Of a stretch of DNA of 64,000 nt, positions 9,212 to 15,575 are shown one piece after another (positions within the stretch are counted from its first letter, which is position 1; every line of letters starts with the position of its first letter). The position numbers and the translations under genes are program-made. Source of the DNA: Methanoregula formicica SMSP (GTDB lineage: Archaea > Halobacteriota > Methanomicrobia > Methanomicrobiales > Methanospirillaceae); assembly GCF_000327485.1 (NCBI RefSeq), contig NC_019943.1:1550001-1614000 (forward strand). Reading direction: 5' to 3'. A model generated the notes under the pieces. The model made no database searches, was not told the origin of the DNA, and saw only the letters and a list, made by a program, of their open reading frames with translations.

Positions 9212-9766
9212 TCACATGATGAGGGAGATGAGGTCGTGCTTGGTGATGACCCCCTTTACGATCCTCCCGTCAACAACGAGCACCGCGTGGTTCTGCTGCA
9301 GGATGTTCACCACGGTCTCGACATCCATATCGGGGGGAACGGTGGGGAAGCCGGGCTCCATGAAGTCCCGGACAAAGAAGAGGTGGGTCTTGTGGAGGCG
9401 CTGCTGCTCGATGGCCTTGACGATGACGGCCTCGGATATGCAGCCCACCGGGATGCCGCGCTCGATGACCGGCAGCTGGGAGATGTTGTTCTTCTCGAAA
9501 ATCTCTACGGCACGGCTGATCGCGTCCTGCGGCTGGACCGAGAGGACGGGGGTGTGCATGATCTGGGCGGCACGGATCTTCTTGGGCTCCGCGCTGTTGA
9601 GGACGACAATAATCTTGTTGAGCGTGCTGACCCGGGGATCAACATTACCTGCCTCGATCCGCGCAACCATGGACTGGCTGATGCCGGCGCGTCGTGCCAG
9701 CTCGGTCTGGCGCATACCGAGCGCCTCGCGGCGTGCCCGGAGTTCATCGGGAGTTGGTACGTGCAT
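9212..9766 (-). CDS. HTH-XRE transcriptional regulator with two CBS domains
   Basis: This 184-residue protein has an N-terminal XRE-type helix-turn-helix (about residues 8-58, with MRQTELARRAGISQSMVARIE) and a pair of CBS domains (about 66-120 and 128-184). Each CBS domain carries the usual pattern (VLSVQPQDAISRAVEIF, FPTVPPDMDVETVVNIL). CBS pairs typically bind adenosine nucleotides or SAM, so this is probably a metabolite-sensing DNA-binding regulator. A TATA-like CTTATAACC sits only about 20 bp before the ATG, so the transcript is probably leaderless. The promoter contains a GGTTGATATCAT motif that may be an autoregulatory site. The gene is divergent from the RLAN/ATP-grasp cluster, a possible target. 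Confidence 0.88.
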   Translation of the reverse strand: MHVPTPDELRARREALGMRQTELARRAGISQSMVARIEAGNVDPRVSTLNKIIVVLNSAEPKKIRAAQIMHTPVLSVQPQDAISRAVEIFEKNNISQLPVIERGIPVGCISEAVIVKAIEQQRLHKTHLFFVRDFMEPGFPTVPPDMDVETVVNILQQNHAVLVVDGRIVKGVITKHDLISLIM

Positions 9767-9961: not shown

Positions 9962-9968
9962 TTTTAAA
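9962..9968 (+). promoter_or_regulatory. TATA box for the small ORF/RLAN operon
   Basis: TTTTAAA at this position would place transcription start near 9990, just before the hairpin at 9997-10020 and 40 bases before the ATG at 10031. Confidence 0.4.
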
Positions 9969-9996: not shown

Positions 9997-10020
9997 AATC
10001 CGGCGTCCTGATGCCGGATT
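9997..10020 (+). promoter_or_regulatory. Leader hairpin upstream of small ORF
   Basis: AATCCGGC (9997-10004) and GCCGGATT (10013-10020) form a perfect eight-base-pair stem with an 8-nt loop. It lies at the predicted 5' end of the transcript and just before the ATG at 10031. Confidence 0.5.
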
Positions 10021-10023
10021 AGT

Positions 10024-10087
10024 GTTCTCTATGACAGAGTCCGAGACAAACGATGATGATGAAGAGAACCATCGGCGGTTCTCTTTT
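10024..10087 (+). promoter_or_regulatory. Attenuator-like hairpin with competing arm
   Basis: AAGAGAACC (10062-10070) pairs perfectly with GGTTCTCTT (10077-10085) across a six-base loop and is followed by TT, giving a terminator-like hairpin. An upstream GTTCTCT (10024-10030) can pair with AGAGAAC (10063-10069), so the two pairings are mutually exclusive, as in attenuators. The hairpin falls inside the small ORF at 10031-10174, so it may instead be coding sequence that happens to fold. In archaea such control would be unusual. Confidence 0.4.
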
Positions 10088-10174
10088 GTAACCGGTAGAG
10101 ATGTTGACTGTTTTGTTTGCCGGCCCAGGAGACACGTGGCGCAAGCGGCCATCCGGGAGCGGATCATCCCATGA
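10031..10174 (+). CDS. Small acidic ORF coupled to RLAN gene, 47 residues
   Basis: An ATG at 10031 opens a 47-residue frame beginning MTESETNDDDEENHRRF and carrying a CFVC pair near residue 32. Its TGA (10172-10174) overlaps the ATG of the RLAN gene in ATGA, the typical sign of translational coupling in this genome. The frame remains open upstream to a TTG at 9986, and a GTG at 10022 is another possible start. No ribosome-binding site is obvious. Its position before a peptide-ligase cluster makes it a candidate substrate or accessory peptide, but that is inference only. It could also be non-coding leader. Confidence 0.4.
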   Translation: MTESETNDDDEENHRRFSFVTGRDVDCFVCRPRRHVAQAAIRERIIP

Positions 10175-10956
10175 ACTCACCATTCAGCGGGAGCCATCGC
10201 GGAGGATCTATCAGCGTTCCCCCCGCACCCGGCTCCTGTGTCCCCCTCATACGGCCGGATGCGAAGCTACCGTCACCCAGAGCCGATAGCCAGGCACAGC
10301 CCATGCGGAACCCGGCACGCAGGGAGCCCCTCCTCTCGCGTGACGCGCTCTACGCTATCCGGCGTGACCATGTCCTGCACGTGGTGAGCGCGAACTATTC
10401 CTACAAGACCGAACCCTATTACACGATCCTCCGCCTCGAACTGGAAGGAAAGGCCGTGCTCCCGTCCAGTGCATCCGTCATCGACGCCTACGTAGTCCCG
10501 GTCTGTCTCGAACGGGCGCACCTTGCCGGCATCCCGGTCTGCGAGTGGGGCATCTCGCAGGTGTACACCCCCCTTCCTGCCATCCTCTACGGGCTGAACT
10601 ACTATGCAACGGCTTTGGAATATGCAGTTGTCCGGGACACCCTGAAGGCAAAGGAGTTCGTGAAGCATATCACCAACCGGGGGAAATATCCTTTCTGCTA
10701 CCAGAAACTGCCTGAAGGTGCGGAGATCGGGTCCTGCACAGCCATCTTCGGCAGGACTGCGGGCAGGTGCAGCCGCGTTGCGGAGCTCGCAGGGCAGGTC
10801 TACGAGCTCTTCCATATCCCGCTTGTCACCATCGTATACGTCCGAGCAGGGGAGCGGTACCTCCTCTCCTCGCTCTCGCCGGTCAAATCCTCGCAGTTGT
10901 CTGAGGAAGAGCGGGCGATCCTTTCCGCATATCTCTCGCAGCAGGAGTTCCTATGA
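10171..10956 (+). CDS. RLAN domain protein (RimK-like ATP-grasp N-terminal domain)
   Basis: The protein (261 residues from this start) matches the RLAN domain known to precede or accompany RimK-like ATP-grasp ligases in predicted amidoligase systems. Recognisable segments are LHVVSANYSYKTEPYYTILRLELEG, here about residues 70-95, and PVCLERAHLAGIPV. The start at 10171 is suggested by the ATGA overlap with the small ORF. The first 44 residues are low-complexity and unlike the family, so the ATG at 10303 (MRNPARREP) is a serious alternative. The stop overlaps the ATG of the ATP-grasp gene. Most likely the two act together in one ligation reaction. In fused relatives RLAN lies on the same chain as the ligase; here they are split. 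Confidence 0.75.
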   Translation: MNSPFSGSHRGGSISVPPAPGSCVPLIRPDAKLPSPRADSQAQPMRNPARREPLLSRDALYAIRRDHVLHVVSANYSYKTEPYYTILRLELEGKAVLPSSASVIDAYVVPVCLERAHLAGIPVCEWGISQVYTPLPAILYGLNYYATALEYAVVRDTLKAKEFVKHITNRGKYPFCYQKLPEGAEIGSCTAIFGRTAGRCSRVAELAGQVYELFHIPLVTIVYVRAGERYLLSSLSPVKSSQLSEEERAILSAYLSQQEFL

Positions 10957-11822
10957 GCCGGCTCGGGATCTTTGTTGACCGGAAAACCCTGTCAAACGCG
11001 GAACAACTGGGTGCTCTTATCCGGTGCCGTGACGTAGCGGAGAAGATGGGGCATGACGTTGACTTTATCTTTCCGGTGGATATCGGCAAGATCCCCAAAG
11101 AGGATGCGCTCTTCATCCGGGCACGGACCGACCCGATGAATGTCACATTTGTCGCGGCACGGATGGCAGCGTTCCATAACATACCGGTCATCGACGACCC
11201 GCAGTCCATCCGTATCTGCTCGGACAAGATCAACATGTACTCCCACCTGATCCGGGCCGGAGTCTCGCTCCCGAAAACAGCCTTTCTCGCTAAGCAGGAC
11301 CTGACCGTTGAGTGTGTCACCCATCTCTTCGATGAGATGGGATCTCCTCTCATCCTCAAGGAACCCTCGACATCGTTCTCGCTCCGGGTCGAGAAGGTGA
11401 ACGACATTGCCGGGTTCTTCCGGGTTGCACGACGGTTCATCCGGCTTTCGGACTGGATCGTGGTCCAGCAGTACATCGAGAGCAAATATGACTGGCGGGT
11501 CGGGGTCCTCGACGGGAAACTCCTCTATGCCTGCAAGTATACCATCCCCTCGGTGACCTTCAAAATCCAGGCATCGGTGAACGGGCATATCGTGTACTGC
11601 GGGGTCGAGAGCGTACCGGAAAAGGATGTCCCACCCCAGGTCCTCAGGCTCGGGATCGAGGCTGCAAATGCCATCGGCCACGGGCTGTACGGGGTTGACA
11701 TCAAGAATACGAACGGCGACGCGTACGTGATCGAGGTGAACGACAATCCCTCCATCGAGAGCGGGGAGGATGACTGTTATCCCCGCGTCTTCGAGCAGAT
11801 CGTAGAACGCCTCACTGCCTGA
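10953..11822 (+). CDS. RimK-like ATP-grasp ligase
   Basis: This 289-residue ATP-grasp enzyme forms C-N bonds by activating a carboxylate as acyl phosphate. The order is a pre-ATP-grasp domain (residues 1-95), the nucleotide-binding subdomain with LILKEPSTSFS near 133, WIVVQQYIESKYDWRVGVLDGK near 168-190, and the Mg-binding tail YVIEVNDNPSIESG near 260-275. It overlaps the RLAN gene by ATGA and is followed at 7 bases by the cysteine-cluster gene. RimK relatives add glutamates or other amino acids to proteins, coenzyme F420 or tetrahydrosarcinapterin; here the RLAN and GCS2 neighbours point to a separate, uncharacterised product. Confidence 0.88.
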   Translation: MSRLGIFVDRKTLSNAEQLGALIRCRDVAEKMGHDVDFIFPVDIGKIPKEDALFIRARTDPMNVTFVAARMAAFHNIPVIDDPQSIRICSDKINMYSHLIRAGVSLPKTAFLAKQDLTVECVTHLFDEMGSPLILKEPSTSFSLRVEKVNDIAGFFRVARRFIRLSDWIVVQQYIESKYDWRVGVLDGKLLYACKYTIPSVTFKIQASVNGHIVYCGVESVPEKDVPPQVLRLGIEAANAIGHGLYGVDIKNTNGDAYVIEVNDNPSIESGEDDCYPRVFEQIVERLTA

Positions 11823-11829
11823 TGATACC

Positions 11830-12339
11830 ATGACTGACGACTGGATGACACGTGCAGAGGCCATCTGCATGCTCTGCGGAGGGCACTGCTGTAATGGTGC
11901 ACAGCCCCCGATCTCGGAAGACTGCTACCGGAGGCTGGTCGCACAGGGAGTTCCTGACGCAGTATTCGGGCAGGACGGGTACCGCTTCGTAAAGACCCGG
12001 GATGACGGGACCTGCATGCTCTGCAAAGGGGGGAAATGCAGTATCCATGCCTTCAAGCCGGAGACCTGCATCGCAGGCCCGTTCACGTTCGATGTGACCG
12101 CCGATACCATCCGGATATTCCTGAAATACGAGACCATCTGCCCGCTGGTACGGCTGTTAAAAGAGTTCCCGGAAGTATACGACCAGCAGTATGCCGCGGC
12201 AGTCAGGAGCATCACCCGCCTCGTGTCGGACTTGCGCGAGAATGAACTGGCCGCAATCTGCCGGATTGAGGAGCCGGAAACAGAGAAAATCGCGGAGATC
12301 CCGCGCGTATACCCGGTGCAGCATGACAATCGGCACTGA
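11830..12339 (+). CDS. YkgJ-type cysteine cluster protein
   Basis: This 169-residue protein carries the YkgJ/CxxCxxxCC signature: CMLCGGHCC near residue 13, a second group CMLCKGGKCSIH near 62-73, and a later cysteine in KPETC near 78. The pattern suggests a zinc or iron-sulfur site. The family often accompanies modification or maturation enzymes, but its biochemical role is unsettled. The C-terminal third is helical and charged. It ends 17 bases inside the next gene, so the two are tightly coupled. Confidence 0.85.
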   Translation: MTDDWMTRAEAICMLCGGHCCNGAQPPISEDCYRRLVAQGVPDAVFGQDGYRFVKTRDDGTCMLCKGGKCSIHAFKPETCIAGPFTFDVTADTIRIFLKYETICPLVRLLKEFPEVYDQQYAAAVRSITRLVSDLRENELAAICRIEEPETEKIAEIPRVYPVQHDNRH

Positions 12340-13432
12340 ACACGAATTTTCAATTAACGACAGCGAATTTCATCCGCTCCCGGTATCCGACCAGATCTTA
12401 AAAGAGATCTGCGGCAGCTTCGAGAGTGAGATCCTGTTCGGGGACGTCTGGCTTGCAAAGGAACTCCAGAAGACCGTGATCGAGATGGTCCCGCGATCAC
12501 CGGCAGTGGAGATCGCGGCGCTGGAATCGCAGCTGACACAAGGACTGTCACGGTTTTACCGGATCTTCGGCAACCGGTACCGTCTTCTCGGTCTCGGGAT
12601 GCACCCGACTGCACGGGTCCACGAGATCCCGGTCTGGGACCATGACGAGGGGGAATATTACCGGACCTATGACCGGCTCTTTGATATCCGGCAGCACGGG
12701 TGGCTGAACATCCAGGCCCTCCAGATCAATCTCTCCTTCCAGGACAGCAGCGAACTGGTCTTTTTGTTCAACCGCATCCGCTCCCTGCTCCCGTACCTCA
12801 TTGCGATCACGGCCTCATCACCGGTAGTGGAAGGGAAGCTGACCGGGTCCTGCGACAACCGGCTCCTCTTTTACCGGCAGAACCAGAAAGAGCTCCCGGC
12901 GATATGCAGCGGGATCATCCCGGAGAAGATCCGGACGGTTGCCGATCACAAACGCCGCATGGAGAGCATCTGGCGTGAACTCCGGTCCCGCGATGCGGAT
13001 ATCCTCTGCGAGGAATGGGTGGACTCGGCCGGTGTCATTGTACGGTTTTCACGCAAGTGCCTGGAGATCAAAGCGCTGGATGAACAGGAGTCGATCCGTT
13101 CCGATATGGCGTTTGCTGCGTTTGTCCGTCCGCTCCTCCGCTGCCATACCCTGCCGGTGGAGACTGGCCAGGATGCCCTGCTGGAACTGGCAGAACTGGC
13201 AGTGCAGAGAGGGACCTCCGGCCTGAAAGATGAACTGCGACAGATGTACGATCTTGCCTGGCGGAACGCTACTCCCGATGAACGCGGGTACCTCCCGATA
13301 GTCCGGGACCGGATCGAAAACGGGTGCCTTGCGGAGCGGATCGCCGGGCGGATTTCCCGGGGGAAGGCCCTGACAACCGTGCTTGCCGATATGGAAACCT
13401 GCCTGAGGGAGAACCGGGCGTACGGGCTCTGA
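12323..13432 (+). CDS. GCS2-type carboxylate-amine ligase
   Basis: This 369-residue protein belongs to the glutamate-cysteine ligase family 2 (YbdK-like, COG2170), which joins a carboxylate to an amine using ATP. The typical beginning TIGTEHEFSIND, the central LLGLGMHPT segment, and the metal/nucleotide region IQALQINLSF are visible. The ATG at 12323 has GGTG upstream and overlaps the previous stop; the frame upstream of it shows no similarity. Having two unrelated amide-forming ligases (ATP-grasp and GCS2) in one operon is the pattern described for predicted peptide-like metabolite systems. The actual substrates are unknown. Glutathione or gamma-glutamylcysteine synthesis is not supported by this sequence alone. 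Confidence 0.85.
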   Translation: MTIGTEHEFSINDSEFHPLPVSDQILKEICGSFESEILFGDVWLAKELQKTVIEMVPRSPAVEIAALESQLTQGLSRFYRIFGNRYRLLGLGMHPTARVHEIPVWDHDEGEYYRTYDRLFDIRQHGWLNIQALQINLSFQDSSELVFLFNRIRSLLPYLIAITASSPVVEGKLTGSCDNRLLFYRQNQKELPAICSGIIPEKIRTVADHKRRMESIWRELRSRDADILCEEWVDSAGVIVRFSRKCLEIKALDEQESIRSDMAFAAFVRPLLRCHTLPVETGQDALLELAELAVQRGTSGLKDELRQMYDLAWRNATPDERGYLPIVRDRIENGCLAERIAGRISRGKALTTVLADMETCLRENRAYGL

Positions 13433-13508: not shown

Positions 13509-15575
13509 ATGACCCGGACACTCCTTTCTGAAGCCGAAGGCTATGCTCTGCTTGCCGCCCATAAAATACCGGTGCCGAACCATTCGCTTACTACGACACC
13601 GGAAGAAGCCGTCAGGGCTGCCGATGCAATCGGGTATCCGGTTGTCATGAAGGTTGTCTCTCCGGAGATCGTCCACAAGAGCGATGTTGGCGGGGTCATA
13701 ACAGGCATCGGTTCTGGGGACGCGGTGCGGGCTGCATTTACACAGATCCAGGACAGTACGCACTCCCGTGCCCCGGATGCCCGCATCACCGGGATCCTTG
13801 TCGAGCAGCAACTGTCACCCGGGCTGGAACTTATCATCGGCGGAAAGATCGATCCGGCGTTTGGCCGCATACTTACCGTAGGGATTGGCGGGAAGATGGT
13901 GGAACTGCTCCGGGATGTCTCCCTCCGGGTCCTTCCGGTCAGCGACGACGAGATCAACGACATAGTCGGGGAACTGAAAGGATATCCCCTGATCACCGGC
14001 TACCGCGACGAGCCACCCCGCGACAAAAAGGCGCTGGTAAGGATCATCCGGTCAGCTGCGGACCTCTTTCTGTCCGATCTCACGCTTTCAGAGTTCGACA
14101 TCAACCCACTCGTCCTGTACAGGGACGGGGCATGTGCTGTCGATGCCCGGTTTTACCGGGAGGACCGGGAGATCCCCCTGGAGACAGTATCTTCCGCAGG
14201 GATGGACAACAGCCTTCTCGACATTTCTTCCATTGCCGTTGTCGGGGCATCGCAGGACCCGGGCAAGATCGGGTATGCCATCTGCCGGAACCTTCTCACA
14301 TTCCCCGGCTCGCTCTACCCGGTCAATCCAAAGTCACCCATGATTCTCGGGCGGCAGGCATACCCGGACCTGGCTTCCCTACCGGGGAAGGTTGACCTTG
14401 CCGTGATTGCCATCCCAGCGGCCGGAGTCCCGGGCGTTATTGAAGAGGCAGGAAAGAAGAAGATTCCGCTCTCCATCATCATCTCCTCCGGGTTCCGGGA
14501 GGGAGGGGGCGAAGGCCGGAACCTGGAAGAGGACATCCTTGCCATCGCACAGCGCCATGGTATGCGGATTATGGGGCCGAACTGCCTCGGGCTGATGCTC
14601 CCCCACAAGGGGATCAACACTACTTTCGACCCGGTATCCCCCCGGCCCGGGCGGATTGCATTCATCTCCCAGAGCGGCGCCATCATCACCACCATCGTGG
14701 ACTGGAGCCTGCCGGAGGAGATCGGGTTCTCCTCAGTCATCAGCGTCGGGAACCAGGCAGACCTCACGTTCGAGGACTTCGTCCGGTACGCCGGTGACGA
14801 TCCCGCAACCCGCTCGATCATCCTCTATATCGAGCAGATCCGGTTCGGAAAACGGTTTATGGATGTCGTCAGCCGCGTCTCGCTCACAAAACCGGTTGTC
14901 GCCATCAAGTCCGGCGCCTCCCGGCTGGGGCAGAGAGCCGCGTCCTCCCATACCGGATCGCTTGCCGGCAGTTATGAGGTGTATATGGCTGCGTTCCGGC
15001 AGGCCGGTGTGATACCGGCCCGATCTATTCGTGAGGCGTTCCAGGCAGCCGAACTCCTCTCCTCCGAGGGATATCCCCGCGGGACGCGTGCCATCGTCAT
15101 CACCAATGCCGGGGGCTTTGCCGTCCTCTCATCTGACTATGCGGAACGGTTCGGCATAGATATGGTGGAATTCCCCTCGGACCTTGTCTCGGAACTGGAT
15201 GCGGTGCTTCCCGCCAACTGGAGCCGGGCAAACCCCATCGATATGGTGGGGGATTCCAGCGCAGACCGGTTCGCCCGCACGTTCGACATCATGATCCGGC
15301 GCCAGGACCTCTGGGACATCGCGTTCATCGTTGCCGTCCCTTCGGCAATATCCGATCCCCTCCGCGTTGCAAACGAGATCGTCCGCTTCTCCCGGCATAC
15401 CCACAAGATGATCGTGGGCTGCATGATCGGCGGCGACAGCATGAAGACCCCGCTCCGGATCCTCCGCGACTCCCAGATCCCCAACTTCCCCGATCTCGAA
15501 GATGCGTTCAGGACGGTGGGGAATATCTGCCAGCATAAGTGCAGCTCGGGCTTCCCGGGGTGCAGGCACGGCTGA
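13509..15575 (+). CDS. ADP-forming acyl-CoA synthetase, fused subunits
   Basis: This 688-residue protein fuses the two modules of ADP-forming acetyl/acyl-CoA synthetase (acyl-CoA + ADP + Pi to acid + ATP + CoA). The ATP-grasp (beta) module comes first (about 1-225, EAEGYALLAAHKIPVP, GYPVVMKVVSPEIVHKSDVGGV), then the CoA-binding/succinyl-CoA-ligase-like (alpha) modules (about 235-688, SIAVVGASQDPGKIGYAICRNL, GPNCLGL). The active-site histidine is seen in SSHTGSLAG near residue 480. In the common archaeal fusion the alpha module precedes beta, so this is the reversed order. It starts 76 bases after the GCS2 gene and may belong to the same transcript or stand alone. Confidence 0.88.
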   Translation: MTRTLLSEAEGYALLAAHKIPVPNHSLTTTPEEAVRAADAIGYPVVMKVVSPEIVHKSDVGGVITGIGSGDAVRAAFTQIQDSTHSRAPDARITGILVEQQLSPGLELIIGGKIDPAFGRILTVGIGGKMVELLRDVSLRVLPVSDDEINDIVGELKGYPLITGYRDEPPRDKKALVRIIRSAADLFLSDLTLSEFDINPLVLYRDGACAVDARFYREDREIPLETVSSAGMDNSLLDISSIAVVGASQDPGKIGYAICRNLLTFPGSLYPVNPKSPMILGRQAYPDLASLPGKVDLAVIAIPAAGVPGVIEEAGKKKIPLSIIISSGFREGGGEGRNLEEDILAIAQRHGMRIMGPNCLGLMLPHKGINTTFDPVSPRPGRIAFISQSGAIITTIVDWSLPEEIGFSSVISVGNQADLTFEDFVRYAGDDPATRSIILYIEQIRFGKRFMDVVSRVSLTKPVVAIKSGASRLGQRAASSHTGSLAGSYEVYMAAFRQAGVIPARSIREAFQAAELLSSEGYPRGTRAIVITNAGGFAVLSSDYAERFGIDMVEFPSDLVSELDAVLPANWSRANPIDMVGDSSADRFARTFDIMIRRQDLWDIAFIVAVPSAISDPLRVANEIVRFSRHTHKMIVGCMIGGDSMKTPLRILRDSQIPNFPDLEDAFRTVGNICQHKCSSGFPGCRHG

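Follow-up and report, generated by a model that had tools for sequence, protein, structure and literature searches.

A conserved amide-ligase operon of methanogens and its acidic leader reading frame, a candidate cis-acting regulator

Predicted amidoligase systems, reportedly surveyed by Iyer and co-workers in 2009, bring ATP-grasp and GCS2 ligases together in gene neighbourhoods that include the RLAN domain, and so pair two amide ligases of different folds. Such a pair is also encoded by the methanogen Methanoregula formicica SMSP, within a stretch of 64,000 nucleotides (contig NC_019943.1, positions 1,550,001 to 1,614,000; the window, from whose first letter coordinates are counted), where the archaeal locus adds a leader open reading frame (ORF) and RNA hairpins to the enzymes. 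The enzyme set is not claimed to be new, and the 2009 survey may already list this neighbourhood. A preliminary description of the locus had called the cluster uncharacterised, which must be qualified, since a fused bacterial counterpart exists. On the Legionella adelaidensis plasmid NZ_LR134436.1, an RLAN-RimK fusion is followed by GCS2 and by an N-formylglutamate amidohydrolase (FGase), in overlapping genes. RLAN, a RimK-like ATP-grasp ligase and GCS2 are thus encoded together in both organisms (identity 36% for the ATP-grasp protein and 29% for GCS2), and the archaeal operon is therefore a split relative of the bacterial one. The two differ in that RLAN is a separate gene in the window, not fused N-terminally to RimK as in Legionella and Pseudomonas, in that the archaeon has a CxxCxxCC protein and Legionella the FGase, and in the leader ORF, for which Legionella has no annotated equivalent. 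The only FGase of the M. formicica genome lies ~0.95 Mb from the cluster and is not a third operon member; it was also rejected as an unlinked partner, because its presence in the class does not track that of the cluster. Literature searches on the RLAN family and on the bacterial RLAN-RimK/GCS2 operon gave nothing useful.

The enzymes LysX and ArgX, which act on the carrier LysW, share with this operon a RimK-like ATP-grasp ligase, and ArgX is the nearest fold to RLAN. For the leader, the closest described cases are mgtL of E. coli and mgtQ of Salmonella, short ORFs in which early acidic residues abort translation and thereby control the downstream gene (PMC11282234, PMC8092293). The archaeal locus resembles them in its short upstream ORF, early acidic codons, structured RNA and predicted control of a downstream gene. 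Those systems, however, are bacterial and serve Mg2+ transport, whereas the archaeal ORF precedes a biosynthetic operon and is joined to it by direct start-stop coupling, and destabilisation of the ribosome would apply to it by analogy. The operon and its leader, including the small ORF (sORF), comprise the following features:

9962..9968, + strand: putative TATA box (TTTTAAA), recognised in the sequence, with a similar box at a similar distance in relatives
9997..10020, + strand: RNA hairpin H1 (AATCCGGCGT-cctg-ATGCCGGATT), then AGTGTT and the sORF start codon; from covariation
10031..10174, + strand: small acidic leader ORF of 47 aa, its stop overlapping the RLAN start (ATGA); from conservation, selection and the coupled stop
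10062..10085, + strand: RNA hairpin H2 within the sORF (AAGAGAACC-ATCGGC-GGTTCTCTT), then a T-rich stretch; from covariation
10171..10956, + strand: RLAN protein, 261 aa, conserved from about residue 44; PF14401, 35.2 bits, and AlphaFold/Foldseek
10953..11822, + strand: RimK-like ATP-grasp amide ligase, 289 aa, motifs intact; PF08443, 42.9 bits
11830..12339, + strand: CxxCxxCC (YkgJ-like) cysteine-cluster protein, 169 aa, a predicted accessory; PF03692, 31.1 bits
12323..13432, + strand: GCS2-type carboxylate-amine ligase, 369 aa; PF04107, 123.2 bits

The five ORFs proposed earlier at 10031-13432 on the + strand were confirmed in coordinates, overlaps and Pfam families. RLAN and the ATP-grasp gene overlap by 4 nt and the CxxCxxCC and GCS2 genes by 17 nt, while the sORF (10031-10174), which encodes MTESETNDDDEENHRRFSFVTGRDVDCFVCRPRRHVAQAAIRERIIP (47 aa), has its TGA stop within the ATGA with which RLAN begins at 10171. 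The RLAN, RimK, CxxCxxCC and GCS2 products exceed the curated Pfam cut-offs (25 bits for PF14401, 21 for PF08443 and 21 for PF04107), and a Pfam profile search with the sORF product gave no match. Recurrence of an "MNxR"-like N-terminus in relatives supports 10171 as the RLAN start, and on the same ground Met-44 was rejected as the true start. Transcription probably begins ~25 nt downstream of the TATA box, just before H1. The cluster is present once in the single-contig genome of 2.82 Mb.

Conservation was assessed in the best 80 GCS2 relatives, most of them metagenome bins, whose loci are numbered L0xx; the nearest relatives of the window genome are Methanoregula. The order RLAN, ATP-grasp, usually CxxCxxCC, and GCS2 is kept in ~60 loci of Methanoregulaceae and Methanotrichaceae, from the genera Methanoregula, Methanolinea and Methanothrix, which make up most of the relatives with enough flanking sequence. 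The CxxCxxCC gene is missing from six Methanoregula-type loci (L015, L020, L023, L024, L026 and L027), and the core therefore consists of RLAN, ATP-grasp and GCS2. In Methanomassiliicoccales this core is present in 6/6 genomes, divided between two unlinked loci, one with RLAN directly before ATP-grasp and the other with GCS2 beside either CxxCxxCC or a second ATP-grasp gene. On a Methanoperedens contig (L029) the three core genes are adjacent in another orientation, with GCS2 facing the ATP-grasp/RLAN pair. Among 149 genomes of the class, GCS2 occurs in 41, all of which also have the ATP-grasp gene (44 in total); both are missing from whole genera, which marks the pathway as a patchy accessory one. 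Two mechanistically distinct amide ligases in one operon had been proposed for this locus, and gene order and co-occurrence both support their being a conserved unit. Comparison shows RLAN, ATP-grasp and GCS2 to form one functional unit, usually together with the CxxCxxCC protein. Both the gene order and the sORF were found conserved, and neither a loss of sORF conservation nor a scattering of the ligases into unrelated contexts was encountered. As judged from sequence comparison, the cluster is more than a chance arrangement, being kept across archaeal orders and having an sORF that passes codon-level and frame-coupling tests. Two genomes of Methanomassiliicoccaceae (L059 and L066) carry two ATP-grasp copies each, one by RLAN and one by GCS2. 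The complete chromosome of Methanoregula sp. SKADARSKE-2 (L028) has frame breaks in RLAN and ATP-grasp, due either to decay or to sequencing error.

The sORF, ~40-80 codons long and located at the 5' end of the transcript, is conserved in the Methanoregula, Methanolinea and Methanothrix loci. In Methanomicrobiales it starts a few bases after a hairpin, encodes an acidic N-terminus (e.g. MTESETNDDDEENHRR or MPEPENENDDDPHDRV) and runs as far as the RLAN start, with stop and start overlapping in most loci as ATGA, TTGA or TGATG. The stop lies within -8..+4 of the RLAN start in 31/32 of these loci, against 11.4 (sd 2.3) in shuffled sequence, although the loci are related and the excess of coupled stops does not amount to 31 independent events. 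Entropy at the three codon positions is 17.0/13.4/22.2 in Methanomicrobiales and 7.4/7.7/18.6 in Methanothrix, third positions varying most, and the in-frame ratio of nonsynonymous to synonymous differences (pN/pS) over the first 16-20 codons is 0.48 in Methanoregula, 0.17 in Methanolinea and 0.35 in Methanothrix, compared to 0.74-2.0 in shifted frames. These measures show that the 47-residue acidic ORF noted earlier, coupled to RLAN by ATGA, is a genuine, conserved gene, and rule out annotation noise; the comparison shows the signature of protein-level selection on the first ~18-20 codons in three lineages. The selected part begins with an acidic stretch followed by His/Arg. Beyond about codon 20 no protein-level signal is seen (pN/pS 0.85; 0.73 against 0.74 in a shifted frame), and the C-terminal part is unconserved and near neutral, but the reading frame continues uninterrupted up to RLAN.

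The Methanothrix frame lacks a conserved ATG; what 23/23 sequences share is an ATT located six bases past GAGGAG. Read as a start, this codon yields (M)SENE-x-ASDP-x-RHRSL, which resembles the Methanolinea peptide MSEPESENDDDP and suggests that the Methanothrix sORF begins at AUU; leader homology across lineages rests on short sequences. An acidic block within the first ~30 codons, as in MgtL/MgtQ, is present in Methanoregula, Methanolinea and most Methanothrix, the exceptions being L035, L039, L040 and L048. In Methanomassiliicoccales no sORF was seen upstream of RLAN, an unlinked copy elsewhere not being excluded. The RLAN protein of Methanoperedens (L029:9970-10641) itself starts with an acidic run (MIVVSEDEDESDSSP), as though the acidic peptide belonged to RLAN.

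In Methanoregula-type leaders, H1 lies shortly upstream of the sORF start codon, and H2 falls inside codons ~11-19. Both-side changes occur in 4/8 pairs of H1, with 92.7% of cells paired, and its inner pairs are 89% paired, compared to 59% (at most 78%) when partners are shuffled. For H2, both-side changes are found in 6/9 pairs and 75.9% of cells are paired, the stem being perfect in the window and in L004. Taken together over 24 Methanoregula-type leaders, the two hairpins have 83.8% of cells paired and a score of 0.314, which is reached in 0/500 shuffles, the slid versions being far lower; the shuffle control keeps relatedness in, and the covariation result is therefore not a probability. 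Leader DNA is almost identical between the window and its two closest relatives. Folding energies of single sequences are unremarkable (z -1.76 to +0.1), so that the case for RNA structure depends on covariation. Searches with a covariance model gave a single strong site in each genome, located upstream of the operon in 13/13 genomes in which both were searched, and this single match ruled out an RNA element serving a multi-gene regulon. An Rfam scan of the window returned tRNA only, the leader matching no family at the gathering score.

The predicted ligases retain their catalytic features. In the ATP-grasp protein, whose solved (PDB) relatives are LysX, RimK and ArgX, residues K92, K136, D249, E261 and N263 are invariant in 27 sequences, leaving the lysines and the Mg-binding D/E/N intact. 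Within the metal-binding GTEHE signature of GCS2, GTE and E8 are invariant and H7 is kept in at least 90% of 36 sequences; the model of this protein (predicted local distance difference test, pLDDT, 89.1) is matched by Foldseek to YbdK-type and plant glutamate-cysteine ligase folds. The cysteine-cluster protein has seven conserved Cys (C16, C20, C21, C62, C70, C80 and C104). PF14401 matches RLAN in all 39 relatives, and the AlphaFold model of RLAN (pLDDT 89.9) has its best Foldseek matches in ArgX, RimK and LysX (E ~1e-9, TM score ~0.6). At the sequence level RLAN and ATP-grasp proteins are not detectably related (hhalign probability 3.9%; a PDB sequence search gave no match), and the fold claim therefore rests on the model. 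By eye, the last RLAN strand reads LSSLSP, compared to VIEVNDNP in the active ligase. RLAN may thus be a degenerate ATP-grasp fold that pairs with the active ATP-grasp ligase. The operon product would belong to the amides or short peptides and probably contain a gamma-glutamyl bond.

The preferred explanation, considered moderately probable, is that the operon encodes a pathway to a small amide or peptide metabolite and carries its own translated leader, with the sORF peptide acting as a regulator in cis rather than as a ligase substrate. Conservation, selection, coupling and covariation emerge from the comparison itself. Selection that is limited to the first ~20 residues and leaves the tail merely open is the signature of a leader acting during translation, and since RLAN is translationally coupled to the sORF, the fate of the ribosome there would set the expression of the operon. 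On the enzymatic side, GCS2 would form an amide between an amine and a carboxylate, for which the gamma-carboxyl of glutamate is the likeliest candidate; the ATP-grasp ligase, with RLAN as its pseudo-ligase subunit, would attach the next residue; and the cysteine-cluster protein might serve as a metal or Fe-S accessory. On the regulatory side, ribosomes translating the acidic stretch would pause, abort or pass, the start-stop coupling of RLAN would pass this outcome on to the whole operon, and H1 and H2 may contribute RNA-level control in Methanoregulaceae. A more specific version is offered tentatively and is less likely: the leader may be an archaeal nascent-peptide sensor, which pauses or destabilises its own ribosome according to a cellular condition (Mg2+, K+ or an amino acid, for example) and so sets the output of a new gamma-glutamyl-type pathway through the RLAN coupling, with AUU throttling initiation in Methanothrix. 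Several observations weigh against the leader explanation. In the literature consulted, acidic nascent chains are described as destabilising the ribosomes of bacteria and eukaryotes, not those of archaea. The deep-branching Methanothrix loci L035 and L039 start basic (MERRYYKKHRSG or similar) and have no acidic run, so that leader composition is lineage-dependent, and L040 and L048 retain the frame without an acidic N-terminus. H1/H2 covariation was looked for in the Methanothrix leaders and not found, and no neighbouring gene belongs to a known pathway that would constrain the product.

The preliminary description had put forward the sORF as a substrate or a leader peptide, and the regulatory leader proves the better half of that proposal. 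As a substrate, carrier or primer, the peptide would be a carrier like LysW or Pup, or the precursor of a ribosomally synthesised and post-translationally modified peptide (RiPP) with a conserved leader and variable core. The sORF is indeed small, acidic, first in the operon and coupled to RLAN, whose nearest folds, ArgX and LysX, act on LysW, and a distant relationship links GCS2 to PafA, the Pup ligase; the conserved N-terminus and variable C-terminus also superficially resemble a leader-core layout. Unlike LysW, however, the peptide lacks a conserved C-terminal Glu tail: the C-terminal residue differs between loci (P, L, G, S, T, V and I, among others) and no residue there, nor a Glu/Gln acceptor of the Pup/LysW type, is conserved across lineages. 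The C-terminal half evolves near neutrally (pN/pS ~0.85), a test for a graspetide-like core found no conserved or selected core residues, and the peptide thus offers neither an acceptor residue nor a core that is conserved. Methanomassiliicoccales, moreover, have the enzymes with no sORF in view, within the limit given above, and the Legionella counterpart has no annotated adjacent precursor gene, all of which renders the substrate reading improbable. Little weight is likewise given to the proposal that the 5' region is conserved solely as a structured RNA, a protein- or ligand-binding leader in which the open frame is a by-product. Covariation of H1 and H2, the near-identical leaders of the two closest relatives and the single copy per genome would all suit it, but it does not account for the codon-position pattern, for in-frame pN/pS well under that of shifted frames in three lineages, or for a frame open to the RLAN start across unconserved sequence, and Methanothrix retains the peptide without detectable covariation.

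A further proposal concerns the product and is compatible with the leader model: GCS2 as GshA and the ATP-grasp protein as GshB would make a glutathione-like thiol. A GCS-type ligase followed by an ATP-grasp ligase follows the logic of glutathione synthesis, GCS2 aligns with plant glutamate-cysteine ligase, and a thioredoxin-like YyaL/DUF255 gene often precedes RLAN in Methanothrix. The ATP-grasp protein is nevertheless RimK/LysX-like, reaching 12.3 bits with TIGR01380, the model for glutathione synthase (cut-off 299), the specific glutamate-cysteine ligase models score far below their cut-offs for GCS2, and the GshA/GshB-like genes reported from Methanobacterium belong to the GshF type (PMC7278568). 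A thiol product is accordingly regarded as unlikely.

The proposed cis-acting leader recurs in two methanogen orders as a single-copy, operon-specific element. Few conserved leader peptides with a regulatory role have been described in archaea. The operon further suggests that common freshwater methanogens make a new small-peptide metabolite, and RLAN, as a degenerate ATP-grasp protein and likely partner of the active one, would give its family a structural role that can be tested.

In ~20 Methanothrix loci among L042-L079, the leader is preceded by a YyaL/DUF255 thioredoxin-domain gene of the same orientation (~700 aa; family assigned by eye), a possible functional neighbour. A fused alpha/beta, ADP-forming acyl-CoA synthetase (window 13509-15575) begins ~76 nt past GCS2 in M. 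formicica; it was rejected as a conserved operon member, since it follows GCS2 only in Methanoregula-type loci. Upstream of the operon, a divergent gene (window 9212-9766, - strand) encodes a helix-turn-helix (HTH) and CBS-pair protein that is strongly conserved in Methanoregula loci and is a candidate regulator of the operon.

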